Positions 45,563 through 62,516 of a stretch of DNA of 64,000 bases are shown here, piece after piece. This stretch comes from Fulvivirga sp. M361 (GTDB taxonomy: Bacteria; Bacteroidota; Bacteroidia; Cytophagales; Cyclobacteriaceae), in contig NZ_VKDC01000011.1 of the NCBI RefSeq assembly GCF_007097395.1, positions 1 through 64,000 on the forward strand, given 5' to 3'. Each line of letters begins with the position of its first letter. Positions within the stretch are counted from its first letter, which is position 1. A model generated the notes under the pieces. It saw only the letters and a list, made by a program, of their open reading frames with translations, was not told the DNA's origin and ran no database searches. The translations under genes and the position numbers were made by a program.

Positions 45563-45819
45563 CAAGAGCACAAAACAGATATTGCCATACTTATTTTAAC
45601 AGAAGAGATCCATATCTTTTTTATTTTTTTTCAAGGTTTATCCAGTCTTTAAAAATTGATTTTACTCTCTGATAATGAGTTATTTACACATAAATACTCT
45701 GTATAAAGCACTGAACTTTGATAGTCCTTTTAATAATTCCCGATGCCACTGAGGCAACCCATTTCCATGTATCCTCGTGTTGTGATGGATTGAAATTAAA
45801 TGAAATAATACTAAGCATT

Positions 45820-48247: not shown

Positions 48248-48562
48248 CTATACAGTAATAACTCCTTCCCGTAGAACATCCTGGTAAAAGTGATTAATCT
48301 GAGTAATAGGCATTGAGAAGATGTTAGGTTGCTTTGTACCCATTAATTCTGAAACGCGTTTTTCTATGCTGGAGTACAGAAGCGCCTTCGTCTTAATTAG
48401 TAAAATCGTCTCAGAAGTATCCTGAACTTCATTGTCCATCCACCTCAATGTCTGAATTCTGGGGATAACATTAGCACTATTTGTAATACGTTCCTGAATA
48501 AGTACACGACCAATACTCCTTGCCTCTGCAGCATCTTTGGTAATGAGATAGATCAATACCAT
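48248..48562 (-). CDS. cutA: CutA-like divalent ion tolerance protein
   Basis: 104 residues, a typical trimeric CutA1 size. NSANVIPRIQTLRWMDNEVQ matches the conserved A-C/S-V-N-I-x-P-x-x-x-S-x-Y-x-W-x-x-x-x-x-x-x-E strip, followed by ILLIKTK and a helical C-terminus with ISQINHFY-like sequence. Physiological function is uncertain (metal tolerance or signalling). It starts 5 bp after the ECF sigma gene on the same strand, so they form an operon, preceded by the shared 17-bp palindrome. Confidence 0.8.
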   Translation of the reverse strand: MVLIYLITKDAAEARSIGRVLIQERITNSANVIPRIQTLRWMDNEVQDTSETILLIKTKALLYSSIEKRVSELMGTKQPNIFSMPITQINHFYQDVLREGVITV

Positions 48563-48567
48563 AACAC

Positions 48568-49107
48568 TTAATTGTTGCGCCCATAGAACCCTGAATCCAT
48601 CAAAGATTTACGCATTAACATTCTGGCCCGATGTATCCGGGTTTTTACCGTACACAAAGGAATATCCAATACCTTTGAAATTTCTTCATACTTCAGCCCC
48701 TCAAAATCCCTCAAAAAAATGGCCCACTTGAATTCTTCTTTTAGCGCATTAAATGCGTTCATAACCTCGTCACTAAAGGTATTCCGAAAAACATCCGGCT
48801 TCACAGGTGTTTCATAATAGTTAATATCATTATTCTCATCCGTCATCTCCACAAACGGTCCTTTTTGCTTTCTTCTATAATTATTAACAAACAGGTTATA
48901 CATCATTTTAAACAACCATGACCTTGCGTTGGTACCGGGTTCATAATAGTTTTGATATCTAAAAGCCCGTAGAAAAGTATCTTGTACCAGGTCCTGGGCG
49001 TCTTCCTCATTATTAGCAAGTTTTACAGCAAAATGAAACATAGCATCTGTATGCTGTAAAAATTCTTCTAGATGTTGCTCGTTTGGAGATGAAGTTAATG
49101 TATGCAT
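48568..49107 (-). CDS. ECF-type RNA polymerase sigma factor
   Basis: 179 residues from ATG 49107 (a TTG two codons earlier also fits). Region 2: FAVKLANNEEDAQDLVQDTF, LRAFRYQNYYEPGTNARSWL; region 4: ALKEEFKWAIFLRDFEGLKY, ISKVLDIPLCTVKTRIHRAR. This is the SigW/RpoE-like subgroup, not FecI type. No anti-sigma gene is adjacent; cutA follows instead. The 17-bp palindrome of the regional regulon lies 16 bp upstream, so its synthesis is probably controlled there. Confidence 0.9.
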   Translation of the reverse strand: MHTLTSSPNEQHLEEFLQHTDAMFHFAVKLANNEEDAQDLVQDTFLRAFRYQNYYEPGTNARSWLFKMMYNLFVNNYRRKQKGPFVEMTDENNDINYYETPVKPDVFRNTFSDEVMNAFNALKEEFKWAIFLRDFEGLKYEEISKVLDIPLCTVKTRIHRARMLMRKSLMDSGFYGRNN

Positions 49108-49123
49108 AGCCAAATATTTTACA

Positions 49124-49140
49124 TGATAGTAATACTATTA
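49124..49140 (-). promoter_or_regulatory. Regulon palindrome, site A (ECF sigma-cutA)
   Basis: TGATAGTAATACTATTA; on the gene's strand it reads TAATAGTATTACTATCA. Sixteen bases separate it from the sigma gene ATG. One of six near-identical sites in the window. Confidence 0.7.
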
Positions 49141-49531
49141 TTTTTAAACGCAATATACTGAAAAAAGTTATGAAGTGTTTCAAACTAACGTGCTATACTT
49201 TTAATTTTGATGATAGAAGGAAGAAGGCCGTGTTTTAATAAGGTTTTCTATCACTTATCCGGTTATCGAAAAAGGTCTAATCACTTAAAAAAACAGCCAA
49301 TAGCTATCACTTGATAGATTTATATTTCTAAGAGTTTGTACCGGCCGGCAGGATAAACCATAGCGATTGATACTCGCTCAGATTATCGCAGCTTCTTTCA
49401 GGGATAGTGTAGTATAAAAGTTCTTCTCAGACTTTTGAAATGACTTTGTGAGTCAAGTAAAGGAAGCATCGTTTTTGACGGGTATTGGATTGGATACTAA
49501 TTTAGATGGTTTTCAGGCAGAAAAGCCAAAA
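49141..49531. other. Intergenic region behind the exporter operon
   Basis: About 390 bp between the tolC-like stop and the ECF sigma promoter. No ORF, RNA or strong hairpin is recognised. Confidence 0.35.
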
Positions 49532-50968
49532 TCACTGCTCCACCAATAATCCAAGATTAACCACGCCAGCTGCCCAATAAAGATTGGCGATGTTTTTATA
49601 ATAAGTAGCGCGAAGTTTGAACAATTTGGACTGTGCAGCAATCAATTTTTCAATCTGGACATTGATCTTGAAAAGATCACTTTCTCCATTTTGCAGGTTA
49701 AGCCGTTCAGCAGCCAAAATAAGTTGATAATTATTGGCCATTTCCTCTTGTTGTATCAACATATCACCGGTATTTACAAGAGAATTAAACTGCCCATTGA
49801 TATTGTTAATGATCTGACGCTCTGCAAAATCCCGTTGAAAGTTGTTCTCTATTAATTTCAGTTTGGTCTGATTAAGTTTGGCTCGTTCTTTCCTCAAAAA
49901 AATAGGAAATGAAAAATCCACTCCTACTTTTAAATTCTCCGTTAAGGTAATATCATTACGGTCTCCCTGAGCGTTGAATGGCTGGTCCAGTAGAACATAG
50001 TTCAAATCCAACTGTGGCTTGAGGTTTTCCCTTGCCAGATCTCTGTCTACCATCAATGACCTGTTCTTAATATCCAATTTGCGTATTTCCGGATGATTTT
50101 CTCGCGCCATTTCTACCAGTTCATTTAAAAACGCATCTTCAAACGTAAGCGTAGGCAATTGTTCCGGCCTCACATTATCTGCAAGTTCAAGCGGTGCACC
50201 ATCGGCATTCCACAAGTTATTGGATAGTGTCAGGGCTGCTTTAATACGATCAATATTCGCCTGCTGATAATCGATCATCCTGGTTTGAAGCGTAATTTTA
50301 GCCTGGATCGTATCGATAGCAGCTGTTTCTCCATAATCAAAAGCTAATTTGGTACGGTCAAAGATATCCTGGGCCACACCAATACTTTGCTGCATCAGCA
50401 GGTAGTTATTGTAGGCGAAATACCACTCCCAATAATCTTTAGCAGCTGTCAGCAGTATTTTGTTCATCTCCTTGATCTGCTCTGCCTCAGCCATATCCTG
50501 AAAAAGCCGGGCCTGCTTTACTGTAGCTCTTCGCTGATCGATAAAAAGGCCTTTACCTACCGGAATAGATACTCCGGCAAATACCTGCTGATTATTTGTT
50601 TTATCAGAAATCTCATTCTCATCACTCACAAAGTCACCAGTAGCTCTTTCTACCCCTACTTGGGGATCAATGGGAAACCAAACGGGGATCTTCAACCCAA
50701 CTTTAAGACGGTTATAATACTCTATTTCTGACAAATCCTTATAATCCCATGAACCTTCCAGCTTTGGATCAAAACCACCACGTGCCAGTCTGACTTCTTG
50801 CATGGCCTGGTCCGTTAATAGCTCCGCCTGCTTAACTACCGGATGATTATTCAGAACTAATGCATAGAAATCATCAAACTTAAGTACCGTGATACTGTCT
50901 GACTCTGTTTGTGCGAATAGGTGAAAAGAAATACAGCAGCAAAACAATATGCCTATCAGTCTTCTCAT
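49532..50968 (-). CDS. TolC family outer membrane efflux protein
   Basis: 478 residues with a signal peptide (to about 20, HLFAQ). Two structural repeats of long helices with heptad-like patterns are visible, for example LLTDQAMQEVRLARGGFDPK and IDTIQAKITLQTRMIDYQQA in the first half and RENLKPQLDLNYVL, then IIQQEEMANNYQLILAAERL in the second. The protein forms the outer membrane channel of a tripartite exporter. Its start overlaps the stop of the HlyD-like gene by 4 bp. It closes the TetR-ABC-HlyD-TolC operon. Confidence 0.9.
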   Translation of the reverse strand: MRRLIGILFCCCISFHLFAQTESDSITVLKFDDFYALVLNNHPVVKQAELLTDQAMQEVRLARGGFDPKLEGSWDYKDLSEIEYYNRLKVGLKIPVWFPIDPQVGVERATGDFVSDENEISDKTNNQQVFAGVSIPVGKGLFIDQRRATVKQARLFQDMAEAEQIKEMNKILLTAAKDYWEWYFAYNNYLLMQQSIGVAQDIFDRTKLAFDYGETAAIDTIQAKITLQTRMIDYQQANIDRIKAALTLSNNLWNADGAPLELADNVRPEQLPTLTFEDAFLNELVEMARENHPEIRKLDIKNRSLMVDRDLARENLKPQLDLNYVLLDQPFNAQGDRNDITLTENLKVGVDFSFPIFLRKERAKLNQTKLKLIENNFQRDFAERQIINNINGQFNSLVNTGDMLIQQEEMANNYQLILAAERLNLQNGESDLFKINVQIEKLIAAQSKLFKLRATYYKNIANLYWAAGVVNLGLLVEQ

Positions 50969-52317
50969 TTTGCCTTGCTCTTCTTGTTTTCTTTACCAGC
51001 TTTGTCTGACGAGGGTTCCTCATACAAACTAGGTGGAAAGCCATTCAATTGTCGCCATATTTCATACCATATAGGCACATTATCAAGCATTACCCAGCCC
51101 TTTGTACCTGAACCAAGCCTAAGTTGTTCCGGCCATTGTTCATCATCAGGATCAGGAGTAACCAATATACGAAATTCATTTCCCTGGGTATTGAAATAAT
51201 CTATGACCTGTACCACTCCACCAAAAGTACCTACTGAAACGCTGGGCCATCCGGAAAACTGCAAAGCAGGCCATCCATCAAATTCAATTCTTACTTTTCG
51301 ACCAATAGATAACAAAGGGACATCCATGGCCTTAACATACATTTCTACCGCTACATCCGGGTCAGCGGGCATAATGGTCACTACAGCTTCCCCTTCTTTT
51401 ATTGTCTCTCCTATCCCCGCTTGCATTGCCCTAACCACAAAGCCCGATTGTGGAGCTATTACCTGGTATTGCTTGTTTCTGATCTGCATGTTGGCATATT
51501 CGTTTTTAAGCTTGGCTAAAGAAGCTTCCGCATCAAAAAGTTCCGAAAGTGTAGCGTTAAGATCGGATTGGGCCTTGCTGATCTTATCCTGATATTCCGC
51601 CTGTACTCCTGCAAGGTTTACACGAGAATTAACAAGTTCTGCTTTAGCTTCCAGGTATTTATTTTCTGAAGAAACGACTTTCATTCGTGACTCCTGGTAC
51701 TTGGATTCTATATCCTGAAATTTGGTTAAAGCTATATTGCCAGCGTCATATAAAGTCTTATTACGTTCGTATTGATTGCTAAAGTTATTGAATCGAACTT
51801 TCTCCGCAAGGTAGTCAACACTATCAGAAATAAGTTTAAAACCTGTCTGTGCCAGTTTATTCTGGGCTTGTTCATACTTCACGGTGAGGCCGTCGTTTAA
51901 TGCTTTTATCTGGTTCTTAAGTGCATCAACCTTGGCTTGCTTCGAAATAATACTATTTGCTTTCGCCTCTAACTGCTCTTCAAGGCGGATCAGGAGGTCA
52001 GGGTCAAAATATTTATCCTTTATCTCACTAAGTGTCAGAATAGTATCATTGATACTAACAAACTCACCTTCGCGAACTTTCCAGCTCTCTATACGCCCTG
52101 CTATGGCAGATTCTACAGATTGTGGCCTGTTACTGGGTGTAAAGGCGGTAACGTTGCCTACACCTTGAATGTTCTGCTGCCATGGTACAAATAATACAAT
52201 GAAAAAAATTGCTCCGATTCCTAAAAGTACACGTGCTAACCTACGCCCGGCACTGGGCGTTTTCAATGTTTTTAAAGTGTAGAGCTCTTTACTTGTTAGT
52301 TCTTCTCTGACTTCCAT
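50965..52317 (-). CDS. HlyD-family periplasmic adaptor
   Basis: 450 residues. One N-terminal transmembrane helix (RVLLGIGAIFFIVLFVPW), then a lipoyl/biotinyl-like half (VESAIAGRIESWKVREGEFV), and a long coiled coil (about 110-290, with LEAKANSIISKQAKVDALKN). The second lipoyl half contains VIAPQSGFVVRAMQAGIGET. A beta-barrel (VDVAVEMYVKAMDVP, WPALQFSGWPSVSVG) and a Lys-rich tail follow. It bridges the inner membrane ABC protein and TolC. The gene is 5 bp downstream of the ABC gene. Confidence 0.9.
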   Translation of the reverse strand: MEVREELTSKELYTLKTLKTPSAGRRLARVLLGIGAIFFIVLFVPWQQNIQGVGNVTAFTPSNRPQSVESAIAGRIESWKVREGEFVSINDTILTLSEIKDKYFDPDLLIRLEEQLEAKANSIISKQAKVDALKNQIKALNDGLTVKYEQAQNKLAQTGFKLISDSVDYLAEKVRFNNFSNQYERNKTLYDAGNIALTKFQDIESKYQESRMKVVSSENKYLEAKAELVNSRVNLAGVQAEYQDKISKAQSDLNATLSELFDAEASLAKLKNEYANMQIRNKQYQVIAPQSGFVVRAMQAGIGETIKEGEAVVTIMPADPDVAVEMYVKAMDVPLLSIGRKVRIEFDGWPALQFSGWPSVSVGTFGGVVQVIDYFNTQGNEFRILVTPDPDDEQWPEQLRLGSGTKGWVMLDNVPIWYEIWRQLNGFPPSLYEEPSSDKAGKENKKSKAK

Positions 52318-52322
52318 GACAA

Positions 52323-54497
52323 TCAGTTAATAATGTTGTTTAACTCGCCGGACTTAACCAGTCCTTCAAAAGACCCTTCACTTTTTATGAGCCCTTTTTC
52401 CATTAGTACAACGCGGTCACAAGCGGCCATAATCACCGGGTCATTTGAGACCACAAGCAACGTCCAGGGATGTTCTGGCCTCGTGAGCATGTTTATCAAG
52501 TTTAAACGTTCTGATTTTAGAAAATCGTTAAAAAAATCATTCAATATTAACAAATTAGGGCGCTTGGCAAGACAGCGCGCTAAGATAATTTTATTTACCA
52601 AACTATTAGATAGTCCTTTACCACCACTCACCATCATAGTATCCAGCCCCTCAGGCATCGCATTAATGTCATCAGCGATACCCACCGTATTGATTGCCCA
52701 AATGGCATCAGCTGCCTGTGCATGAGGCTTAGCTAATAGTATATTTTCAATAATACTCCCTTCGAAAATGTCTTCCTGCGAAACGTTCTTTCCTATCTTA
52801 TCCCGAAGGTTAGTCAGATCCAGATCCCGCAATGAAAAGCCGTCCATGGTAATGATCCCCTGGTAATTCGTATTCAGTCCTGCTATGGTATTCATAAGCA
52901 CGGTTTTACCAGAGCCTCCACCTCCGGCAATACAAATATGCTCCCCACCTTCTATCGTAAGATCGATCCCTTTCAAAGCCTGTTGTGACTTGTCCGGGAA
53001 CTTATATTTCAAATCCTTCATCTGAATACCAAAACCACGATACAACATTGCTTTCGGCATGTCCATTCCTCCGCTTTTTTCTAGTGGCAGATCAGTTACA
53101 TGTGATATTTTATCCACTGCAGTAAGCATGTCATAAATGACATCCATATACATAATTATCTTTTCTACAGAACTGAGTGTGAGGATAATAATCACCTCTG
53201 ATGCAACAAACTGGCCCAATGTTATTTCACGTTGAATCACCAGGATAGTGCCAATGATCAACAAACCTCCGGTAACTAATGCCTTAAACAGCAGAATAAA
53301 CGAATACTGACTAATCAGTACTCCGAAATGTACTTTCCTGTTTTTTAAATAGTTGTTTACATTGTAATCCGTCTTTCGAATGGGTAGTGCCGTATTACCG
53401 GATAATTTAAAAGAGTTAATGGTACGTGCGAGCTCTTCCAACCAATAAACTACTTTATACTTAAATTTAGATTCTTTTATAGAGGAATTCAGACCGCGGG
53501 GTCCGGTATAGTAAAAAATCAGTGTTAATGCTATCAAAAGGATTAAACTAAAGAACACAAAGAATGGATGATAAAATGATAGCAATATCAATCCAAATAA
53601 TATCTGGATAACACCCGCAGATAAATCAATTAAAAGCTTAGGCAGTCCTTTTTGTATGGTCAGCACATCAAAAAACCTGTTCATCAGTTCAGGTGCATGG
53701 TAGTTTAACAAGGCTTCAGCCTTAATTCTGGGTACACGAAAAGCGAATTCAAAGGCTGCTTTGGTAAACACTCGCCGTTGTAGATATTCCACCAGGGTAA
53801 TCTGCATGACCTGCAAACCTCCCGTAGCCAATACACCTACAATTACCAGCCCTATCAAAACATATACAGAGCTGAATACCACGCCTCCTGAAATAAGAGA
53901 TACTGTAGCCTGGATACCCAAGGGCAACGTAAGACTAATAAGTCCTATAAGCACAGCATACACATACACATAAAAAATGTCCTTCTTTTCCTCAGAAAGC
54001 AACCTGATCAGACGTTGTACCGGGTTCAATTTCTTTTGCTCTTCCCCGTCGTCAGGATCATCGCTGACCAGGCTTTTGTAAGAAAATACGCCTAAAAACG
54101 ACACCTTACCCATCTCTTCGTATAGAGAAGGGAAATAATCGTCAGAGCACTCCTTAACTCGAGTATCATTTTCCAAAAGTTGGAGTACCTGGGTTTTCCC
54201 TTTCTTTTTGAAGAAAAGAACTGGTATCCTATCCCCTTCTGTTTCCTCAAAAGCAACCAGTGGAATCTCCACTCCCTGGATAAAGGCTCGAAACTCTTCT
54301 CTTTCAAGGCTATTATCAAGATAAATGATACGCTGTTTATTCGCTGCCTCTATCAGGTCTCTCTTAAACTCAGCAATTTCATCCATCGCATACTCACGGG
54401 GCGATGAATCAATTTCAGTCAAAGTAAGCCCGTCAAAGTCCTGCTCAAGCATATACGCAGATTCCCTGATAATCTGTATGATCTGATTACTATTCAT
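52323..54497 (-). CDS. ABC exporter (type I secretion-like) with degenerate ATPase motifs
   Basis: 724 residues. An N-terminal about 150-residue cytosolic domain without C39 peptidase residues precedes six membrane helices (about 190-460) of ABC_membrane type. In the nucleotide-binding domain Walker A is intact (GGGGSGKT, near 525) and a Q-loop is present (NVSQEDIFEG). The signature is VSGGKGLSN. Walker B reads LLILNDFFND in place of LLILDE, so the Mg-ligand Asp is Asn and the catalytic Glu is Asp. The H-switch is VVSND with no His. It is the transport unit of the HlyD-TolC exporter; ATP hydrolysis may be weak or absent. Confidence 0.85.
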   Translation of the reverse strand: MNSNQIIQIIRESAYMLEQDFDGLTLTEIDSSPREYAMDEIAEFKRDLIEAANKQRIIYLDNSLEREEFRAFIQGVEIPLVAFEETEGDRIPVLFFKKKGKTQVLQLLENDTRVKECSDDYFPSLYEEMGKVSFLGVFSYKSLVSDDPDDGEEQKKLNPVQRLIRLLSEEKKDIFYVYVYAVLIGLISLTLPLGIQATVSLISGGVVFSSVYVLIGLVIVGVLATGGLQVMQITLVEYLQRRVFTKAAFEFAFRVPRIKAEALLNYHAPELMNRFFDVLTIQKGLPKLLIDLSAGVIQILFGLILLSFYHPFFVFFSLILLIALTLIFYYTGPRGLNSSIKESKFKYKVVYWLEELARTINSFKLSGNTALPIRKTDYNVNNYLKNRKVHFGVLISQYSFILLFKALVTGGLLIIGTILVIQREITLGQFVASEVIIILTLSSVEKIIMYMDVIYDMLTAVDKISHVTDLPLEKSGGMDMPKAMLYRGFGIQMKDLKYKFPDKSQQALKGIDLTIEGGEHICIAGGGGSGKTVLMNTIAGLNTNYQGIITMDGFSLRDLDLTNLRDKIGKNVSQEDIFEGSIIENILLAKPHAQAADAIWAINTVGIADDINAMPEGLDTMMVSGGKGLSNSLVNKIILARCLAKRPNLLILNDFFNDFLKSERLNLINMLTRPEHPWTLLVVSNDPVIMAACDRVVLMEKGLIKSEGSFEGLVKSGELNNIIN

Positions 54498-54514
54498 GAT
54501 ATGAAAAGAAGGAG

Positions 54515-55192
54515 TTAGGCGTGTATAGCGTTAAAAACGAGCTGTTTCAGGAAGTCTTCATTCTGTTTGTAGATATCTCCGTTGCTTTTTTTAAAATTAC
54601 TAAGTGAAGGTAGGTGCTCAGCATAAAACAACTGTTGGTGACCTGTCTGCAAAGCCGTAGTTACTAAAGAATGTGGATACTCGAAATCAGGGTTAATCTC
54701 CAAAATGTATGAAGCTATCTTTCCACATAGTGATTTAAAGCCTCTGAACAGCCCCTCCTTATTATCTTCATCCACTTGCTTAGTCAGGTAGGTTTTATCT
54801 GATTCTGCAATAACAATTCTGTAAAGTGCCTCTTCATCTATTTGAGGAAATGATGCATCCTTCTCCTTTTTCTCCGCAATGATCCTTATGGCTATTTCTA
54901 ACCTTCTCTTCGGATCATCTATGTTTTGAGTACCAAAGTCTATCCGATATTCGATCCAATTCCAGTACCAGGCGATAAGATAAACCAGTAATCGGTGTTT
55001 ATTTTCAAAATAACGGTAAATAGATGCTTCCGTAGAATCGATCCTTTGCGCTAATTTTTTGAAAGTAAATTTTTCAAAACCTAATTCGTCAATCATCATG
55101 ATGCTGTCCTGCACGATTTTCCTGCCCAGTTCAGTCTCTTGTGGATCCCTTAAAAAGAGATTCTCTTTCAGCAACAACTGTAAAATTGCCAT
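54515..55192 (-). CDS. TetR family regulator of the exporter operon
   Basis: 225 residues. About 22 N-terminal residues precede the helix-turn-helix (KIVQDSIMMIDELGFEKFTF, LAQRIDSTEASIYRYFENKH). The ligand domain contains YLIAWYWNWIEYRIDFG and a long helical C-terminus. It is the first gene of the TetR-ABC-HlyD-TolC operon, 17 bp from the ABC gene. A 17-bp palindrome stands 34 bp before the start, and the same site precedes five other local transcription units. Autoregulation and control of the whole set by this protein is the simplest model. Confidence 0.88.
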   Translation of the reverse strand: MAILQLLLKENLFLRDPQETELGRKIVQDSIMMIDELGFEKFTFKKLAQRIDSTEASIYRYFENKHRLLVYLIAWYWNWIEYRIDFGTQNIDDPKRRLEIAIRIIAEKKEKDASFPQIDEEALYRIVIAESDKTYLTKQVDEDNKEGLFRGFKSLCGKIASYILEINPDFEYPHSLVTTALQTGHQQLFYAEHLPSLSNFKKSNGDIYKQNEDFLKQLVFNAIHA

Positions 55193-55226
55193 GTGCCCGT
55201 TTGATTATTAAAGATACTAACCTATT

Positions 55227-55243
55227 TAAAAGTATTACTATCA
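55227..55243 (-). promoter_or_regulatory. Regulon palindrome, site B (TetR-exporter operon)
   Basis: TAAAAGTATTACTATCA on the plus strand, one mismatch to the core ATAGTATTACTAT. It lies 34 bp before the TetR start. Confidence 0.65.
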
Positions 55244-55367
55244 ATTATGATATTCAAATAACGTACCAATGTTCAAAAAGTTTAACCCTGATACATTTAA
55301 TTTCATTTCTGGTAATAGATCATAATATCTCTCAGTAATTAAAATGTAATGTATTTAACAGAGCTCT

Positions 55368-56318
55368 TTAAAATTTTTGCCCCAATAATACCTTTAATAA
55401 TCCATTGTTCTCTCCCTTTTTCTTCAATACCAATAAAAAATGATGGTATGCTTTGAAATATACATGTTCAAAAACACTACCAATGAGTGTCGCTAAACCT
55501 GCCGACTTCCCTTTGGCTCCAATAATTACCATATCTACTTTATTATTTTCTACCCAGTCATTTATAGCATGACTCACTTCTTTGCTATGATCTATACTGG
55601 CAATATGGGGCACTACTTCTACTGACAAGTTGGCATTCTCCAGGTATTCATCCAACTGATGCCTGGCATACTGGTCCAGTTTGTTGTTGATAGCTGCTCT
55701 TTTTTCTAAAATGCCGTCTATTTCATGTTTCGTTTCAAAAACCTGCCCCAGGTATTTAGTGGCATCCTGGTACACATGTAAAGTATGTAACTTACACTCT
55801 CGATATTTTTCGGCTATAGCCTGGCTCATATCCAGTGCCAACTGTGAATAACTGGAAAAATCAACAGGTACCAAAGTAGCATGAATTGAGTTAATCACTT
55901 CTTCAGGCACTATCAAAAGGCTGCAAGGTGCCTTTCGGGCCATTTTCTTCACAACACTGCTTGGCATCTCCTTTTGCTTTTTTCCCAATAAAAAAAGGTC
56001 AGCATTCACATCCGAAGCATATCTCAATAATTCGGTTACAACATTACCTTCCTTTACGCAAACCTTTTTTTGTATATCCGCTTTGAAATTCGCACTCAAC
56101 CATTCTTCTATCCTGGATTGATAATGGTTTAATTCAGGAAGGTGTAAATCCGGAATGTCATCCAATACCTCTTGAGGGATATCCGGTTGATTGGTTATGT
56201 ATACAAAGTGAATGATATCGGGCTTAAATTGCTTTGCCAGCTGTTCAATATTTTTTAAGATAAATGTATCTGTCAGGGACATATCAACCCCCACTACCCA
56301 TGTTTTGAAAAAATCCAT
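55368..56318 (-). CDS. Universal stress protein with two Usp domains
   Basis: 316 residues. Two tandem UspA folds: the first starts TWVVGVDMSLTDTFILKNIE and ends with SSVVKKMARKAPCSLLIVPE, the second starts ATLVPVDFSSYSQLALDMSQ and ends with GSVFEHVYFKAYHHFLLVL. The second domain has G-A-K-G-K-S-A-G-L, a reasonable G-2x-G-9x-G(S/T) ATP-loop. Stress or metabolic signalling role, cytoplasmic. It is divergent from the bicarbonate transporter gene, with the 17-bp palindrome in between, 10 bp from its ATG. Confidence 0.88.
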   Translation of the reverse strand: MDFFKTWVVGVDMSLTDTFILKNIEQLAKQFKPDIIHFVYITNQPDIPQEVLDDIPDLHLPELNHYQSRIEEWLSANFKADIQKKVCVKEGNVVTELLRYASDVNADLFLLGKKQKEMPSSVVKKMARKAPCSLLIVPEEVINSIHATLVPVDFSSYSQLALDMSQAIAEKYRECKLHTLHVYQDATKYLGQVFETKHEIDGILEKRAAINNKLDQYARHQLDEYLENANLSVEVVPHIASIDHSKEVSHAINDWVENNKVDMVIIGAKGKSAGLATLIGSVFEHVYFKAYHHFLLVLKKKGENNGLLKVLLGQKF

Positions 56319-56328
56319 TGCCTAAAAA

Positions 56329-56345
56329 TAATAGTATTACTATGA
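56329..56345 (+). promoter_or_regulatory. Regulon palindrome, site C (UspA / SbtA divergent)
   Basis: TAATAGTATTACTATGA. It sits in the 78-bp divergent promoter region, 10 bp from the UspA ATG and 51 bp from the SbtA ATG, so a single site could serve both units. Confidence 0.7.
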
Positions 56346-56396
56346 AATTATATAGATAAACAATCATAAGTTTGTAATGTTTCACATATCTATATC

Positions 56397-57362
56397 ATGA
56401 GCTCTGATATTATACTAAACAATTTACTAAATCCGGCCGTACTTTTCTTCTTTCTAGGTTTAATAGCCGTTTTCATAAAATCAGACCTGGAAGTACCACA
56501 ACCTATTCCTAAGTTCTTATCACTATATCTTTTGCTTTCTATAGGGTTAAAAGGAGGTATAGAACTATCTCATAGTGGTATTAATGCCCATGTCCTTACT
56601 ACATTAGGTATAGCCGTACTGACATCATTTGTTATTCCCGTGTATACTTTCTTTATCCTTAAAAAACGGGTAAACATCTATGATGCAGGGGCTATAGCAG
56701 CCACATATGGATCCATAAGTGCTGTTACCTTTATTACAGCCACAGCTTTCTTAAAAGATTTGGATGTAAGCTATGGAGGGCATATGGTGGCGGCCATGGC
56801 CCTCATGGAATCTCCGGCCATTATTGTCGGTGTACTTTTGATCAATATTTATACTAATGGTGGTCAGCAAAAAATGGGATATGGCAGTATCCTGAAAGAA
56901 GCATTGACAAATGGTTCAGTAGTATTAATATTAGGCAGTTTGATCATCGGCATATTAGGAGGAAGTAAGACTGCAACCGCCCTTGAGCCTTTTACAGGAG
57001 GTATTTTCAAAGGAATGTTAGCATTTTTTCTTCTGGACATGGGTTTGTTGGCAGGTAAAAGAATACGAGCACTACGATCGGCCGGGAGTTTTTTAATTGT
57101 ATTCAGCCTTATGATACCCATTTTTAATGCAGCCGTGGGAATTGCTCTCTGCACTCTTTTCCACATTAATACCGGAGATGCATTATTGCTGGTGGTATTA
57201 CTTGCCAGTGCATCCTACATTGCAGTACCCGCAGCCATAAGGTTAACCGTGCCAGAGGCCAATCCCGGCCTTTATGTGCCTATGTCATTAGCCATTACAT
57301 TTCCGTTTAATATTATTATAGGTATCCCTACTTATTATTATATCATCAATTGGTTAAATTAA
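56397..57362 (+). CDS. sbtA: Sodium-dependent bicarbonate transporter (SbtA family)
   Basis: 321 residues and about 10 transmembrane helices. NLLNPAVLFFFLGLIAVFIK opens the protein as in SbtA, followed by SIGLKGGIELS, and MALMESPAIIVGVLL is the conserved helix-break region. SLAITFPFNIIIGIPTYYYI closes it. SbtA imports bicarbonate with sodium in cyanobacteria; the heterotroph homologues probably supply CO2/HCO3- to carboxylation steps. The PII-like partner gene starts 7 bp after its stop. Confidence 0.88.
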   Translation: MSSDIILNNLLNPAVLFFFLGLIAVFIKSDLEVPQPIPKFLSLYLLLSIGLKGGIELSHSGINAHVLTTLGIAVLTSFVIPVYTFFILKKRVNIYDAGAIAATYGSISAVTFITATAFLKDLDVSYGGHMVAAMALMESPAIIVGVLLINIYTNGGQQKMGYGSILKEALTNGSVVLILGSLIIGILGGSKTATALEPFTGGIFKGMLAFFLLDMGLLAGKRIRALRSAGSFLIVFSLMIPIFNAAVGIALCTLFHINTGDALLLVVLLASASYIAVPAAIRLTVPEANPGLYVPMSLAITFPFNIIIGIPTYYYIINWLN

Positions 57363-57369
57363 AGGAAAG

Positions 57370-57663
57370 ATGAAGCATTTAAAACGAGTAGAAATCGTCA
57401 CAGGAGCTCTTGAAGCTCCTAAAGTGGTCCAAATATTGGATGAATATAACATCACTGGGTATACCATGATTAAAAATGTAGAAGGCCGTGGTGACAAAGG
57501 CATTCAGGATGGTCAAGGGCTACACAACGCGTTTCAAAACATTTATTTAATGGTAGCCTGTTCAGAAGACGAAGTGAAATCTTTCACTGAACCGCTCAGG
57601 GCACTATTGAAAAAATCAGGAGGTGTATGTTTGGTGAGTGATGCCGAATGGCTGATACACTAA
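57370..57663 (+). CDS. PII-like regulator of the bicarbonate transporter (SbtB-like)
   Basis: 97 residues with the ferredoxin-like fold of PII proteins: LKRVEIVTGALEAPKVVQIL, DEYNITGYTMIKNVEGRGDK and a C-terminal VCLVSDAEWLIH. In cyanobacteria SbtB is a PII-like protein that binds adenyl nucleotides (cAMP, ADP, AMP) and closes SbtA. The T-loop region (RGDKGIQDGQGLHNAF) is compact as in SbtB. Co-translation with SbtA supports that role here. The loop binding specificity cannot be read from sequence alone. Confidence 0.85.
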   Translation: MKHLKRVEIVTGALEAPKVVQILDEYNITGYTMIKNVEGRGDKGIQDGQGLHNAFQNIYLMVACSEDEVKSFTEPLRALLKKSGGVCLVSDAEWLIH

Positions 57664-57667
57664 AACA

Positions 57668-57892
57668 TCAGGATACTTGTAATGAATGTCCGTCCGGATA
57701 AACCATGATAACACTTTCTGCACAGTACTGGTTTTTAAGTTTTGTTGCATACGAGATAGCGTCATTGGCTTTATCAAATACGCTGAATTGTTTCCTTATG
57801 TTGAAGAGTTCTACCGCCTCTATTCTTGGTCTTACCAGAATAACTACACAAGTCTCAGGCTTAGGGTCTCCTTCAATTACAATCCAGGTCAT
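57668..57892 (-). CDS. Small DUF2188-like protein
   Basis: 74 residues: a strand-strand-helix-strand order with FDKANDAISYATKLKNQYCA and ending VIMVYPDGHSLQVS, similar to the DUF2188 pattern (F-x-T-K-x-x-A-x-x-x-A ... V-x-x-x-x-x-DG). Function is unknown. It lies 18 bp after the TPR gene on the same strand and belongs to that operon; its 3' end nearly meets the SbtB stop from the other strand. Confidence 0.6.
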   Translation of the reverse strand: MTWIVIEGDPKPETCVVILVRPRIEAVELFNIRKQFSVFDKANDAISYATKLKNQYCAESVIMVYPDGHSLQVS

Positions 57893-57910
57893 AGAAATTT
57901 GATAAACACA

Positions 57911-58237
57911 TCATTCCGTATTTTCAGGTATTTTTTGCACACCATTTTTTTTCAGAAAGATCTTTACAAACTCGGGATCTAATTCCAGCGCCCTCTTGTA
58001 ATCATTTACAGCTTCCTGATACTTATCTGCCACCATGAAAGCACGGGCACGATGCATATATGCTTTTGGTGAAAGTGGTTCTTCTTCTATAGCTCGGGTA
58101 AAGAAGAAAATGGCTTGCTGAAAATCTCTCTGGGACATAAGTGCTTCTCCATGACGAACGAAATCATTACCTGATGCCATGAATGAACAACTGAGAGAAA
58201 AGAGTAGAAAGACGGAGGTATATCTGAGAGTGCGCAT
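57911..58237 (-). CDS. Small secreted TPR protein
   Basis: 108 residues. Signal peptide (MRTLRYTSVFLLFSLSCSFM; a possible lipobox LSCS). Two TPR units follow: GEALMSQRDFQQAIFFFTRA, EEPLSPKAYMHRARAFMVAD and KYQEAVNDYKRALELDPEFV. It presumably binds a partner protein in the periplasm. The regulon palindrome lies 12 bp upstream of the ATG. Confidence 0.78.
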   Translation of the reverse strand: MRTLRYTSVFLLFSLSCSFMASGNDFVRHGEALMSQRDFQQAIFFFTRAIEEEPLSPKAYMHRARAFMVADKYQEAVNDYKRALELDPEFVKIFLKKNGVQKIPENTE

Positions 58238-58249
58238 AACTATTTATTA

Positions 58250-58266
58250 TGATAGTATTACTATAA
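58250..58266 (-). promoter_or_regulatory. Regulon palindrome, site D (TPR-DUF2188 operon)
   Basis: TGATAGTATTACTATAA on the plus strand; perfect ATAGTATTACTAT core. It is 12 bp from the TPR gene ATG. Confidence 0.7.
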
Positions 58267-58614
58267 ATACGTAAAAAGATAGTCATTGGTTGCAGTTTAG
58301 AGCGCCTTTCTCCATGCTCTACTCCAAGTATAAAAGAAGTAACAGATAAGCGATTATACTATTGCAATTAGTATAATTATCATTAACCGCAATTGAAAAC
58401 ATGTACGGGAAAAAGGCTTACAATTCAGAGATAAGAAATGCAAACTAAATCAATATTTGCTTCTGAAGATTATGCAAGACGGCTATTCAGACAGTAAACG
58501 CTACTCTAACGAAATTAGGGTTCTGACTTATAAGGTAATTACCTGGTTCTCCCCCTATATCAGCCCGCTTAAAAAGCGAAGTAATTAAATAATCAACACC
58601 ACAAAGTGAGATAA
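58267..58614. other. Intergenic region, about 350 bp
   Basis: No ORF, RNA gene or strong hairpin recognised. Confidence 0.35.
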
Positions 58615-58923
58615 TTATTTTATCACCTCGATCTCTATGGTACCGTTAATTTTTAGTTGCGCACCTTGTTCCCCCAACGTTGCTAATAGCTCCTTTAAAG
58701 AATCATTAACATTTTTCAACTCCACGATGCGCTGTCTTGAATGTGATACATCGCCGCTATTCTTCTCCTGGATGCAAAACATTTCAAAACTATGATAGTT
58801 GATCTTATCTTTGATAAGGGCTTTGAGTACCTTACCAGCGTCTTTAGCGGAAAACATTCCTTCTACCAGTTTAAAATCATACTTATTTTCCTTTTCATGA
58901 AAGGTCAGTGTTGTATCAGTCAT
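58615..58923 (-). CDS. Unrecognised 102-residue protein
   Basis: From ATG 58923; a longer frame begins at 59061 but would read through the regulon palindrome, so I prefer the shorter start, whose N-terminus MTDTTLTFHEKENKYDFKLV looks like a real strand pattern. Then LVEGMFSAKDAGKVLKALIK, INYHSFEMFCIQEKNSGD, a helix VELKNVNDSLKELLATLGEQ, and a C-terminal strand INGTIEIEVIK. I know no family. The architecture is a small beta domain with a helix, perhaps a scaffold or binding protein. Its place in the regulon is its main clue. Confidence 0.7.
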   Translation of the reverse strand: MTDTTLTFHEKENKYDFKLVEGMFSAKDAGKVLKALIKDKINYHSFEMFCIQEKNSGDVSHSRQRIVELKNVNDSLKELLATLGEQGAQLKINGTIEIEVIK

Positions 58924-58959
58924 TTCTGCGATTATGTTTAAATGCTTTACATTACTAAT

Positions 58960-58976
58960 TAATAGCATTACTATCA
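58960..58976 (-). promoter_or_regulatory. Regulon palindrome, site E (102-residue protein)
   Basis: TAATAGCATTACTATCA, one mismatch in the core (C for T). It is 36 bp from the ATG at 58923 and supports that start. Confidence 0.6.
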
Positions 58977-59071
58977 TTGAACACGCTAATTCATAAAAAG
59001 TTGCAATAACCTGTATTTTTTTTTGATTTGCTGATGATAACCCAATACACTTATTTATCACAATACATCAT

Positions 59072-59950
59072 CTAGTGAGGTACCTTTCGCTTCTTTAACA
59101 TCCCTCCTTTCACATCTCGCACACCATGTATTACGACGAAAGCTGCAGGGTCCGTATCATCCACAATACGGTTAATTTTCAACAATTCCAGCCTGGTAAC
59201 TACAGTATATAATACATCTATCTTTTCCTGGCCTTCACTATTTTGACCATATCCTCCCCTGCCATTTAATACGGTCACACCTGTATTCATTTCTTCGAGA
59301 ATGATTTGTTTTATTTCATCGCTTTGCGTGGAAATTATGGTTAGCCCGAGGTATTCTTCGATACCTTGAATAATAAAATCCATGGTTTTAGAAGCCACGA
59401 AATAGGTTAAGATAGAATATAAAGCGAGTTCTACACTCAATAACCAGGCAGCCACACCAAATATCACCAGGTTGATCAATATAATAATATCACCCATAGA
59501 AACATTCAATAATCTGCTAAAGTACAACGCTAATATCTCTGTTCCATCGATTACACAGCCTCCCCGTACGCTTAACCCAATACCCGCTCCCAGGAAAAAC
59601 CCGCCAAATACAGCAGCCAGCAGAGTATCTTCCGTAATAATGGGAAATTCTAACAGCGCCAGCACTACAGACAGCAATACTACCGCTAATGTTGTTTTAA
59701 GTACGAACTTCCTGCTCATCTGAAGGTAGCCTATGATAATGAAAGGTATGTTCACTACCAGGATTACATAAGAAATGTCTAAAATCGTGGTTTCAGCAAT
59801 AAGGAGTGATATACCTGTTGCTCCACCATCAATGAAATTATTTGGTAAAAGAAATCCTTTTAACCCAAATGCAGCAGAAAATACTCCAGCCAATACCCAA
59901 AGTATTTCTACTACAGCACGACCCACCGAGGTGTTTTTATGATCATTCAT
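59072..59950 (-). CDS. YitT family membrane protein
   Basis: 292 residues. Five or six membrane helices in residues about 10-195 (EILWVLAGVFSAAFGLKGFL, DISYVILVVNIPFIIIGYLQ, FGGFFLGAGIGLSVRGGCVI) and a C-terminal cytosolic DUF2179 domain (IISTQSDEIKQIILEEMNTG, VTVLNGRGGY). YitT proteins are widespread putative transporters of unknown substrate. It starts just after the terminator of the isocitrate dehydrogenase gene and has no palindrome of its own. Confidence 0.88.
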   Translation of the reverse strand: MNDHKNTSVGRAVVEILWVLAGVFSAAFGLKGFLLPNNFIDGGATGISLLIAETTILDISYVILVVNIPFIIIGYLQMSRKFVLKTTLAVVLLSVVLALLEFPIITEDTLLAAVFGGFFLGAGIGLSVRGGCVIDGTEILALYFSRLLNVSMGDIIILINLVIFGVAAWLLSVELALYSILTYFVASKTMDFIIQGIEEYLGLTIISTQSDEIKQIILEEMNTGVTVLNGRGGYGQNSEGQEKIDVLYTVVTRLELLKINRIVDDTDPAAFVVIHGVRDVKGGMLKKRKVPH

Positions 59951-59958
59951 AATAAAAA

Positions 59959-59979
59959 AACCAGGCCAAAAGCCTGGTT
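59959..59979 (-). terminator. Terminator of the isocitrate dehydrogenase gene
   Basis: AACCAGGC and GCCTGGTT form an 8-bp stem with a CAAAA loop. On the minus strand it is followed by seven Ts, 38 bp after the stop codon and only 9 bp before the YitT start. Confidence 0.75.
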
Positions 59980-60017
59980 CTGTAATAAGTTAAGTATAGT
60001 TCATCTGCTAACGAAAA

Positions 60018-61529
60018 TTACTCCCCTTGCCCTAAGGAAAACCCTATGCGATCGCCGAATTTATATAAGTTTTCGGTTTTGATGACATCAAAGCCACCTG
60101 CATTTAACTTCGATAAGAGCGCCACTATATCTTCGTAGTTGACTTCCTCATACTTGGTGGGTTTACTGGTCAAGTCCGATGTTGTGCATACAAAACGACA
60201 TCTCCAATGATCTGTGCAGAACGTTTCCGGTAGTCCATCGGGGTAAACCTTAACCCCACGGTTAGTAATCATTTTCAATTTCATTCGATACGCATTCAAC
60301 GCTTCCAATGACTTTCCAAGTTTATTAGCATCATTTTCCGGCCAATCAAGGAAAACATCTACCCCAACTAGTTTCTTAGTAGTGGCTTTTCGTTTAAACT
60401 CAGGAATTTCCATTTTCCCTGTACCTTCTATCAACCTGCTGGGTTTCAAATGCTCAGGCTCCATGCCCAATCGCGCTATGACTTCATCAGCAAAATCCTC
60501 AGTGGATACCTTTTTCTTACTTTCTTGTGTAAAAATATCTTGTGTATGATAGCCTGACTCAATAGTAGCAAGCCATGCATTTTTAACTTTATCAGCCACA
60601 TCTGACTGACCTATATGTGCCAACATCATAACAGCCCCATTGAGCAATCCTGACGGGTTAGCCACATTCATACCGGCTATATCAGGCGCTGATCCATGAA
60701 TAGCTTCAAACATGGCTATATCTTTTCCAATATTTGCGGACCCGGCCATTCCTACCGAGCCAACCATTTCGGCAGCTACATCAGATACAATGTCACCGTA
60801 CAAATTAGAAGTTACCACCACATCATAATCTGCAGGCCGGGTTGCCAGACGAGCGGTAGCAATATCAATGATCTGAACATCTTTTTCAATAGCAGGATAC
60901 AGCTCGCCAATTTCGTCAAATACCTTGTGGAAAAGACCATCGGTAAGCTTCATGATATTGTCTTTAAGCATACAAGTAACCTTCTTACGACCATAGGCCT
61001 TAGCATACTCAAAAGCATAACGCACTATTTTTTCACAACCTGGTCTTGTAATAAGTTTTAAGCATTGTACTACATCCTGTGTTTGTTGATGTTCGATCCC
61101 CGCATACAGGTCTTCCTCATTTTCACGGATAACCACTACATCCATGGTAGGGAAATAGGTCTGCACGTAAGGGGATAAAGACATGACGGGTCTTACGTTG
61201 GCAAAAAGCCCCAGCGACTTACGCATGGTAACATTTAAACTTTTATACCCCTTTCCCTGAGGTGTAGTAATAGGGCTTTTCAGAATAATTTTATTCTTCC
61301 TGATCACATCCCAGGACTCCGGTGTAATACCAGATGAATTACCGGAAAGATAAACTGCTTCACCTACATCAATAAAAGTAGGTTCAATGCGCGCCCCTGC
61401 AGCGTCTAATATGCGAAGCGTAGCGTCCATAATTTCGGGCCCAATGCCATCGCCTTTGGCAACGGCAATCTTCACGGCCTCCTTTTCATTCAGCTCAAAA
61501 GAATTAGACTCAAGTGAAAGGCTTTTCAT
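60018..61529 (-). CDS. icd: NADP-dependent isocitrate dehydrogenase (Thermus-type)
   Basis: 503 residues from ATG 61529 (a longer start would run through the palindrome). VKIAVAKGDGIGPEI opens the fold and RPVMSLSPYVQTYFPTMDVV precedes the substrate motif RENEEDLYAGIEHQ. The signature is NLYGDIVSDVAAEMVGSVGM and the cofactor loop EAIHGSAPDIAGMNVANPSG. The C-terminal about 150-residue extension, ending FGDRIGFSLGQGE, is typical of the long Thermus-like form. It converts isocitrate to 2-oxoglutarate and CO2 in the TCA cycle. The 17-bp palindrome is 18 bp upstream. Confidence 0.93.
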   Translation of the reverse strand: MKSLSLESNSFELNEKEAVKIAVAKGDGIGPEIMDATLRILDAAGARIEPTFIDVGEAVYLSGNSSGITPESWDVIRKNKIILKSPITTPQGKGYKSLNVTMRKSLGLFANVRPVMSLSPYVQTYFPTMDVVVIRENEEDLYAGIEHQQTQDVVQCLKLITRPGCEKIVRYAFEYAKAYGRKKVTCMLKDNIMKLTDGLFHKVFDEIGELYPAIEKDVQIIDIATARLATRPADYDVVVTSNLYGDIVSDVAAEMVGSVGMAGSANIGKDIAMFEAIHGSAPDIAGMNVANPSGLLNGAVMMLAHIGQSDVADKVKNAWLATIESGYHTQDIFTQESKKKVSTEDFADEVIARLGMEPEHLKPSRLIEGTGKMEIPEFKRKATTKKLVGVDVFLDWPENDANKLGKSLEALNAYRMKLKMITNRGVKVYPDGLPETFCTDHWRCRFVCTTSDLTSKPTKYEEVNYEDIVALLSKLNAGGFDVIKTENLYKFGDRIGFSLGQGE

Positions 61530-61547
61530 AAGTTCTACATTTATATT

Positions 61548-61564
61548 TAATAGTATTACTATCA
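61548..61564 (-). promoter_or_regulatory. Regulon palindrome, site F (icd)
   Basis: TAATAGTATTACTATCA on the plus strand; perfect core, 18 bp from the icd ATG. Confidence 0.7.
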
Positions 61565-61820
61565 AAGAACAAACCAACACCCCGGAAGTTCAGATTTTAC
61601 ATAATTTATTTATCATGGGGAATACTTATTCAATACACTCAACTTCAAACCAAGAATAATTATACCTCCATCAAGAATTATAAAGAATACGTATGTGTTT
61701 GAAGCTTAAACTATTTTATGATTCCCCCAAAATGATTAACATGGGCCTTTCTTTAAAGGGTAAAGCCTGTAAAAGAATGTCTTACATGAATAAAACACAG
61801 CCTCTTTGACAGGTTAATAA

Positions 61821-62417
61821 ATGACTGAAAAACAATTATGGCAACGATTTAAAGAAGGGAGTGAAGAAGCCTTTTCCAACATATATCACACCCATTACAA
61901 TGTATTATATAATTATTTAAACAAAATAGGCAGGGATGAAAATTTGAGCAACGACTGCATCCAGGACTTGTTTTTCAAACTCTGGCGTGACCGAGAGAAA
62001 TTAGGAGATATACAGTCTATTAAGTTTTACCTTCTTACCTCAGCCAGAAGAGCTATTCTCAAAAAAATTAAAAAGGAAAGGGCGTTTGATAAAAAAATCA
62101 AAGCAGCAGGATACCACGAAACGGACATCACATTTGCACAGGAAGAACTATTGATCCATGATGAAGAAGCAGCTGAGCTCAAGAAGAAAATAGCCGACTT
62201 GCTAAATTCGTTGCCCAAAAGACAAAAGGAGGCCATTTACCTTAAATATTACGAAGGCCTCTCTTACGATGAAGTAGCTGAATTGATGGAAGTCAATTAT
62301 CAATCGGTCGTAAACCTCATTTATAAAGCTTTCCAAACATTCAAGAAGCATGACTTATTACAGTCTCTAAAACATTGGTGCATCTTTCTTTTACTGCGTC
62401 ATCTTTTTCAACAGTAA
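61821..62417 (+). CDS. ECF sigma factor (FecI-like)
   Basis: 198 residues. Region 2: EEAFSNIYHTHYNVLYNYLN, DCIQDLFFKLWRDREKLGDI; region 4: LNSLPKRQKEAIYLKYYEGL, YDEVAELMEVNYQSVVNLIY. This is the Bacteroidota FecI-like/Sig70-19 type that is encoded next to FecR and SusC-type receptors. The following genes confirm this: FecR and a SusC-like gene, all on the plus strand. It presumably drives the expression of this receptor system in response to substrate. Confidence 0.93.
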   Translation: MTEKQLWQRFKEGSEEAFSNIYHTHYNVLYNYLNKIGRDENLSNDCIQDLFFKLWRDREKLGDIQSIKFYLLTSARRAILKKIKKERAFDKKIKAAGYHETDITFAQEELLIHDEEAAELKKKIADLLNSLPKRQKEAIYLKYYEGLSYDEVAELMEVNYQSVVNLIYKAFQTFKKHDLLQSLKHWCIFLLLRHLFQQ

Positions 62418-62516
62418 AATTTATTCAGAAAAAATTTAGGGGAGAAGAGTATAGAACACAGCCATGTGTCTCTTCCATAGTAGGCAACAACCAAATAGTA
62501 TTGAAATCAACGTAAA

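Follow-up and report, generated by a model that had tools for sequence, protein, structure and literature searches.

Genes and putative operators at the locus

The stretch of DNA analysed here, referred to throughout as the window, comprises 64,000 nucleotides of Fulvivirga sp. M361 (contig NZ_VKDC01000011.1, positions 1 to 64,000). Our subject is a 17-mer palindrome, TRATAGTAWTACTATYA, that stands before six gene units within 12.4 kb of it, together with the TetR-family regulator encoded in one of these units. A first-pass annotation had reported six copies of the palindrome, four with a perfect 13-bp core (ATAGTANTACTAT) and two with one mismatch, lying 10–51 bp before start codons. All were found. 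Measured from the core instead of the 17-mer, the gaps to the start codons are 18 bases for the extracytoplasmic function (ECF) sigma factor, 36 for TetR, 12 for the universal stress protein (Usp), 53 for SbtA, 14 for the tetratricopeptide repeat (TPR) protein, 38 for a 102-residue protein and 20 for isocitrate dehydrogenase (icd); the divergent Usp and SbtA genes share one site. The genes and palindromes (putative operators) are listed below, where L and G numbers are our labels for loci and genomes and ABC stands for ATP-binding cassette.

48248..48562, minus strand: CutA1 (PF03091)
48568..49107, minus strand: ECF sigma factor, ATG start, with a TTG start at 49113 (Pfam ECF sigma)
49124..49140: palindrome, perfect 17-mer, before ECF sigma-cutA; orthologous site in L342 and G009
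49532..50968, minus strand: TolC-type outer-membrane channel (PF02321, OEP)
50965..52317, minus strand: HlyD-type adaptor (Pfam HlyD)
52323..54497, minus strand: ABC exporter subunit, 724 amino acids, degenerate nucleotide-binding motifs (Pfam ABC)
54515..55192, minus strand: TetR-family regulator, 225 amino acids, proposed from linkage and covariation to bind the palindrome (PF00440, 30.1 bits, cut-off 24)
55227..55243: palindrome, one mismatch, before tetR-ABC-hlyD-tolC; kept before TetR in L341–L344 and G107
55368..56318, minus strand: universal stress protein (PF00582)
56329..56345: palindrome between the divergent usp and sbtA-sbtB; core with at most one mismatch in L341, L342, L344 and G009
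56397..57362, plus strand: SbtA-type sodium/bicarbonate transporter (PF05982, Sbt_1, 399 bits)
57370..57663, plus strand: SbtB-type PII protein (PF00543, P-II, 49 bits)
57911..58237, minus strand: TPR protein, 108 amino acids (Pfam TPR)
58250..58266: palindrome before the TPR gene; kept in L341, L342, L344, G009 and G090
58615..58923, minus strand: 102-residue protein without a Pfam family; its relatives in other families occur close to TetR and to SbtA, Icd or CutA
58960..58976: palindrome, one mismatch, before the 102-residue gene; conservation not seen (four relatives)
59072..59950, minus strand: YitT/DUF2179 membrane protein, 3' of icd (Pfam YitT and DUF2179); icd-yitT order kept in G009, G090 and L344
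60018..61529, minus strand: NADP-dependent isocitrate dehydrogenase, ATG start (NF006673, 743.9 bits, cut-off 509; Pfam Iso_dh)
61548..61564: palindrome, perfect 17-mer, before icd-yitT; kept in G009, G090, L344 and L341

Pfam agrees with the first-pass labels for TetR, ABC, HlyD, TolC, ECF, CutA, Usp, SbtA-SbtB, TPR and icd. It does not bear out the DUF2188 label in the TPR unit (no Pfam family there at E ≤ 0.001 for the protein so named), and the YitT gene after icd had not been named. TetR_N is the sole Pfam domain found in the TetR protein, with no LysR helix-turn-helix or substrate domain. Against the NCBIfam equivalogs SlmA, KstR, FadR, TetR and BetI the protein scores 19–28.8 bits and reaches none of the cut-offs (120–280). 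Its nearest named relatives are 86% (Fulvivirga) and 84% (Flammeovirgaceae) identical, in a comparison from which its own genome was possibly excluded.

The strict palindrome is confined to the cluster

We scanned the whole assembly (8,129,137 bases in 148 contigs, 97.55% complete). With at most one mismatch, the 17-mer occurs only at the six sites, all within the 12.4 kb, and the genome-wide search for stray copies that had been proposed thus found none. The first-pass annotation saw no other copy in the window, and at up to two mismatches just three further matches appear there, each with two mismatches; nine or more such matches were obtained in 1 of 100 shuffles (shuffle mean 3.2). The exact core occurs five times in the genome, four of them inside the 12.4 kb. 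The fifth (C60:47136) lies 84 bases upstream of a gene for a 160-amino-acid protein, and its 17-mer has two mismatches. Relaxed to two mismatches, the 17-mer matches 23 places in the genome, compared with 26 for the reversed control; beyond the six sites, each of the 17 listed matches has two mismatches. Because looser matches are no commoner than reversed controls, the strict 17-mer and its clustering are the signal; matches looser than the strict motif are background.

The palindrome accompanies the TetR gene

The cleanest evidence comes from 80 named loci (1,329,202 bases) that were fetched by TetR protein similarity alone. They contain 58 sites (17-mer with at most one mismatch; reversed control, 0), and all 58 are at the start of the TetR gene or of another regulon gene: 48 at TetR, three at TPR, two each at Icd, ABC and SulP, and one at ECF. 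One of the Icd sites, in L341 (a Fulvivirga sp. metagenome-assembled genome), is intragenic in appearance and stands 18 bases upstream of the homologous ATG. Together with the strict genome count, the restriction of sites to regulon genes in loci chosen by TetR led us to reject chance or a repeat family as their source.

The association, which the first-pass annotation had suggested as a check, extends beyond the bacterium's own family. In 35 genomes from outside it, 24 of 37 TetR genes have a site within 200 bp upstream (none of them beyond 105), and this region also holds 13 of the 15 perfect 17-mers. By comparison, 20 TetR-negative genomes outside the family, scanned from among 253 sampled phylum genomes without a TetR match, lack a perfect 17-mer and give 11 matches with one mismatch. 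Within the family, 128 of 148 genomes have a TetR match at E ≤ 0.001, in some cases a weak one, and an exact core lies within 300 bp upstream of 39 of the 144 TetR genes among the matches listed at E ≤ 1e-25. This unbiased family figure is an exact-core count only, because not all 144 listed genes were fetched (118 distinct genes of at least 150 amino acids were).

Over all fetched loci we collected 188 distinct TetR genes and searched from −300 to +70 relative to the TetR start. A core with at most one mismatch is present in 121 (reversed control, 1), or in 103 of 169 when the 19 rows reached through the core itself (18 of them class A in the terms used below) are set aside. Loci L001–L045, L156–L185 and L186–L253 were fetched mostly for holding an exact core, and counts on them are biased.

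Putative operator and presumed recognition helix change together in one clade

A variant operator, class B, close to TGTTAGTANTACAAACT and defined post hoc at up to three mismatches, is found at 15 of the 188 TetR genes. On a tree of the 188 proteins, made by a quick method, operator class (four labels) changes 30 times compared with 61.7 for shuffled labels, and none of 200 shuffles was as low; such shuffles ask only whether the labels cluster. Thirteen of the 15 class-B rows are within a single 18-row clade (support 100). All 11 class-B-clade proteins have S53C, compared with 1 of 121 class A proteins, and all 11 have S57A, compared with 0 of 121. We take positions 53–62 to be the recognition helix of this TetR family, and position 57 is presumably the counterpart of a base-contacting residue of TetR. 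Three more positions stood out in the clade: 18 (F in 10/11), 48 (S in 7/11) and 79 (Y in 8/11). Among the 11 clade members (L301, L302, L304, L305, L309–L312, L317, L318 and L417, each with the changed operator and both substitutions), the class-B pattern matches 11 at up to three mismatches, versus 1 in reverse, and 8 at up to two, versus 0. The 11 proteins are kin within one clade, so that the covariation counts as one event. Operator and presumed recognition-helix residues change together in that clade.

Many sites follow a putative ECF-type promoter

In front of the sites, AAC is followed by CGT[TA] at a distance of 19 in 51 instances, whereas other distances from 8 to 40 occur at most seven times and the reverse complement gives distance 19 once. 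The pattern AAC-N16-CGT[TA] is present in 51 of 181 windows before sites versus 5 of 946 control windows, and the relaxed [CT]GT[TA] box in 67 of 181 versus 21 of 946; the AAC-N16-CGT pattern was first spotted in some of the sequences that were later counted. Before TetR genes the relaxed box is present in 21/30 at 58% identity or more, 15/34 at 48–58% and 8/58 below 48%. By gene they precede Icd in 6/7, TPR in 6/9, Usp in 4/4, ECF in 3/4, ABC in 2/10 and SulP in 2/13 cases; no ECF-type box was found in the site windows of bestrophin (0/4) or YitT (0/2). The following boxes, with coordinates read by hand, lie in the window.

49147..49169, minus strand: ECF-type promoter AAC-N16-CGTT of the ECF gene
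55260..55282, minus strand: ECF-type promoter AAC-N16-CGTT of tetR
56359..56381, minus strand: possible promoter AAC-N16-TGTT of usp
56367..56374, plus strand: TAnnTTTG, −7-like box before sbtA (TAnnTTTG being, we assume, the Bacteroidota −7 box)
58268..58291, minus strand: possible promoter AAC-N17-CGTA of the TPR gene
61568..61590, minus strand: possible promoter AAC-N16-TGTT of icd

The spacing bears on the direction of control. Sixty of the 67 relaxed boxes are 4–25 bp before the core, so that the site would cover or follow the transcription start; the other seven are at 37–50 bp. The position of many sites 3' of an ECF-type promoter suggests repression, and a TetR repressor seated over the transcription start fits the geometry best.

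The proposed regulon in relatives

Close relatives share the sites before icd, TPR, SbtA/Usp, ECF and TetR, but not the one before the 102-residue gene. In G009, a member of another genus of the same family, an exact core precedes each of icd-yitT, TPR, SbtA-SbtB/Usp and ECF. Its TetR gene (48% identical) is on a separate contig with its own one-mismatch core, and at its exporter a core lies 308 bases upstream of the ABC gene with a 79-amino-acid frame in between. G090 has exact cores upstream of icd-yitT, TPR and TetR, and another 127 bases upstream of an ABC-HlyD-TolC operon without TetR. Parts of the cluster are also present in L341, L342 and L344, where the same places carry an exact or a one-mismatch core. 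When orthologous promoters are aligned, the palindrome is kept and the flanks have diverged.

The 102-residue gene has a site in none of four relatives (the window's own row, scored from a GTG start, is excluded). Proteins about 30–36% identical to its product are encoded in L385, L402, L404, L409 and L420, near the TetR-exporter operon and SbtA, Icd or CutA. A DUF6671 gene adjoins these relatives in the three loci tested (L402, L404 and L420). The first-pass proposal that TetR controls all six units is supported for five, whose orthologues keep the site in close relatives, and may extend to the sixth; comparative evidence supports control by TetR of the site-bearing units.

Counted over fetched loci, a core with at most one mismatch is upstream of TPR in 9/9, ECF in 4/8, Usp in 4/15, YitT in 2/11, bestrophin in 4/6 (four loci, all reached through the site) and ABC in 10/124 (many ABC genes stand behind TetR in one operon). 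None precedes CutA (0/3) or Band7 (0/9) in these loci. Such per-gene counts are lower bounds, because the L341 icd and usp frames were called too long and scored as siteless; the usp core, with one mismatch, falls inside the called frame. The SbtA sites in the count come from close relatives only (at least 79%). Regulon content is lineage-specific.

Exporter and carbon genes beside TetR

In 118 same-family TetR neighbourhoods we found ABC 78 times, HlyD 62, TolC 62, SulP 19, beta-carbonic anhydrase 19, Usp 8 and Icd 5; for SulP and carbonic anhydrase, representatives served to name the groups. The 80 named loci contain ABC in 54, HlyD in 48, TolC in 45, SulP in 12, SbtA in 10, ECF in 8, carbonic anhydrase in 5 and Icd in 4. 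In seven of nine distant loci chosen for closer inspection, no more than 10 kb separates SbtA from the TetR-exporter operon: L381 (Sphingobacteriaceae), L392, L402, L404 (also with Icd), L409, L412 and L420. SulP together with carbonic anhydrase forms bicarbonate-uptake pairs, and such pairs, as well as SbtA, adjoin the same TetR in distant genomes. A carbon theme of the TetR regulon is likely on this gene content. The coupling of carbon/CO2 metabolism with export that had been put forward thus finds an echo in distant genomes, while the set of genes involved varies.

Two further neighbours deserve mention. In L139 (G090) and L144 (G009) genes for an acyl-CoA carboxyltransferase and for SulP lie close to TetR, and in L392 (8981-9904) and L404 (8973-9899) a LysR regulator gene, which might be a second carbon regulator, directly precedes TetR.

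Other features of the cluster

The ABC subunit scores 178.5 bits against the type I secretion ABC model (LssB/HlyB) TIGR03375, short of the cut-off of 693.1. GLSNSL replaces LSGGQ, N-D stands at Walker B and S-N-D at the H-loop. In an alignment of 142 rows, 23–25 of which stop short of the motifs, the H-loop has S in 104/142 homologues and N in 75/142 (25 gapped there). The SbtA-type identification agrees with PF05982 and with the SbtB (P-II) partner, and bicarbonate as the cargo, of SbtA as of SulP, is inferred from the families. Divergent from icd, and 259 bases from its site, 61821-63542 encodes a second ECF-like sigma factor and a FecR-like gene (labels by eye); 45718-47202 is a 494-amino-acid frame in whose translation three similar repeats are visible by eye.

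Discussion

We propose that TRATAGTAWTACTATYA is very probably the operator of the TetR protein (54515-55192), which would repress its own operon and neighbouring units until released by a ligand. A TetR dimer would bind the palindrome and shut down tetR-ABC-hlyD-tolC. ECF-cutA, usp/sbtA-sbtB, TPR and icd-yitT would be repressed too, as perhaps would the 102-residue gene. At many sites the dimer would act by sitting over the start of an ECF-type AAC-N16-CGTT promoter. A ligand linked to inorganic-carbon or tricarboxylic acid (TCA) cycle status, or to what the exporter carries, would release it.

Several results weigh against this proposal or narrow it. TetR is patchy, being present in 43 of 296 sampled phylum genomes. 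Of the 144 exact cores in the family, 39 are at TetR and the other 105 elsewhere. Among the 188 TetR genes, those beyond the 121 include 17 with a two-mismatch core only and 35 with neither operator class, next to the 15 of class B; eight of the 35 (L155, L196, L271, L272, L273, L276, L370 and L373) are near a SulP gene that is itself preceded by a core, exact or one mismatch off. The bare 13-mer is uninformative as a marker, with 50 one-mismatch matches in the own genome compared with 69 for the reversed control, and 144 exact ones in the 148 family genomes compared with 151. Most copies of the carbon genes have no core upstream in the fetched loci: 38 of 43 SbtA (5 with), 28 of 36 Icd (7 with, 8 when L341 is included), 25 of 38 SulP (13 with) and 29 of 30 carbonic anhydrase genes (1 with). 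Moreover, these per-gene counts lean towards site-bearing copies, many of the loci having been fetched for holding a core. No ECF-type box was found before SbtA (0/6 site windows). Of the 148 family genomes, 2 gave an orthologue of the local ECF factor (E ≤ 1e-45), with at most 23 candidates per genome scored among the matches listed. The AAC/CGT boxes are spread wider than that, which leaves the local factor unsupported as the sole reader of AAC-N16-CGT promoters; another ECF factor presumably serves elsewhere.

On what the regulator might sense we offer a tentative reading by analogy. It may be an inorganic-carbon repressor of heterotrophic Bacteroidota that senses a CO2- or bicarbonate-linked metabolite (candidates are 2-oxoglutarate and NADP+), caps ECF-type promoters, and switches SbtA-SbtB, SulP-carbonic anhydrase, bestrophin and the CO2-releasing isocitrate dehydrogenase together with a dedicated tripartite exporter. 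The nearest functional analogue is CcmR of Synechocystis, a LysR-type, self-repressing repressor of inorganic-carbon transporters (PMC3401165). Its co-repressors, 2-oxoglutarate and NADP+, are the product and the cofactor of the NADP-isocitrate dehydrogenase of the present regulon. CcmR differs in being a LysR and not a TetR protein and in serving a photoautotroph, and no exporter operon appears in the part of that source consulted (PMC3401165).

The regulon could be real and yet serve detoxification or envelope stress. A toxic compound would then open the exporter, and SbtA, SulP, Usp and icd would be stress passengers. We consider this somewhat unlikely. Exporter genes, not carbon genes, are indeed the commonest partners of TetR in both locus sets (ABC in 78 of 118), Usp and ECF sigma factors are typical stress genes, and Pfam leaves the anion carried by SulP or SbtA unsettled. 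On the other hand, carbonic anhydrase and SulP each occur in 19 of 118 TetR loci, SbtA is accompanied by SbtB in the window, icd has a site of its own in several genomes, and SbtA is near the exporter operon in distant records.

That TetR activates, or both activates and represses, from these sites appears improbable. The sbtA core, which ends 53 bases before the start codon and is upstream of the TAnnTTTG box, would suit an activator, as would the seven promoters with a box 37–50 bp from the core. The 60 closer boxes place the site where it would cover or follow the transcription start, and an operator at a regulator's own start, as here, is typical of autorepression.

Repression by TetR also accounts for the palindrome better than a different regulator of which tetR would be merely one target. 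Further regulators are present in these genomes, including the LysR gene beside TetR in L392 and L404. Against them stand the clustering of operator class on the TetR tree, its covariation with helix residues and the lack of a perfect 17-mer in the TetR-negative genomes outside the family, which make this alternative very improbable. A role in RNA as a leader hairpin, or none as a repeat element, is barely credible: the element is palindromic and mostly within the presumed leader, yet its arms are short and A+T-rich, it is solely at regulon genes in TetR-chosen loci, and its changes track TetR residues.

Relation to known systems

Autoregulated TetR efflux systems such as TetR-TetA and AcrR-AcrAB share with ours a TetR_N domain, a palindromic operator at the regulator's own start and an exporter in the same operon. 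What sets the present system apart is that the units of a bicarbonate transporter, isocitrate dehydrogenase, an ECF sigma factor, Usp and a TPR protein have sites too, and that its TetR reaches no NCBIfam equivalog cut-off. FadR-type TetR structures (5gp9/5gpa/5gpc, 3whb and 1vi0, of which we take 5gp9 and 1vi0 to be FadR) gave some of the best hits when the TetR profile was compared with solved structures (5gp9, E 2.8e-8). These hits reach no further than profile position 134 of 219, taking in the DNA-binding half and some of the remainder, and we noticed no fatty-acid degradation genes among the site-bearing units. SulP-carbonic anhydrase pairs are the same gene pair that adjoins the present TetR, differing in regulator and operator. 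LexA-like SOS regulons of Bacteroidetes, in the part of the source consulted, are likewise palindrome-defined and of the same phylum, and are set apart by their motifs (CTAA-N5-TTAG and GGA-N5-TCC), protein family and genes; we rejected them as an identity for the present regulon on the motifs (PMC8565304).

Search listings from the open-licence literature yielded no description of the present TetR regulator or operator, nor of both together with SulP-carbonic anhydrase, and no account of bicarbonate-uptake control in heterotrophic Bacteroidota was seen there. We class the window protein as a TetR-family regulator; for its putative operator and gene set we saw no description in that literature, in line with the first-pass statement that no system of such make-up was known.

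The putative operator, its regulator and its targets are described closely enough to be tested directly. The joint change of the operator and two presumed helix residues in one clade would amount to a natural specificity swap. Finally, with a putative TetR operator layered onto ECF-type promoters, the locus hints at how control by an alternative sigma factor might be combined with control by a metabolite repressor.

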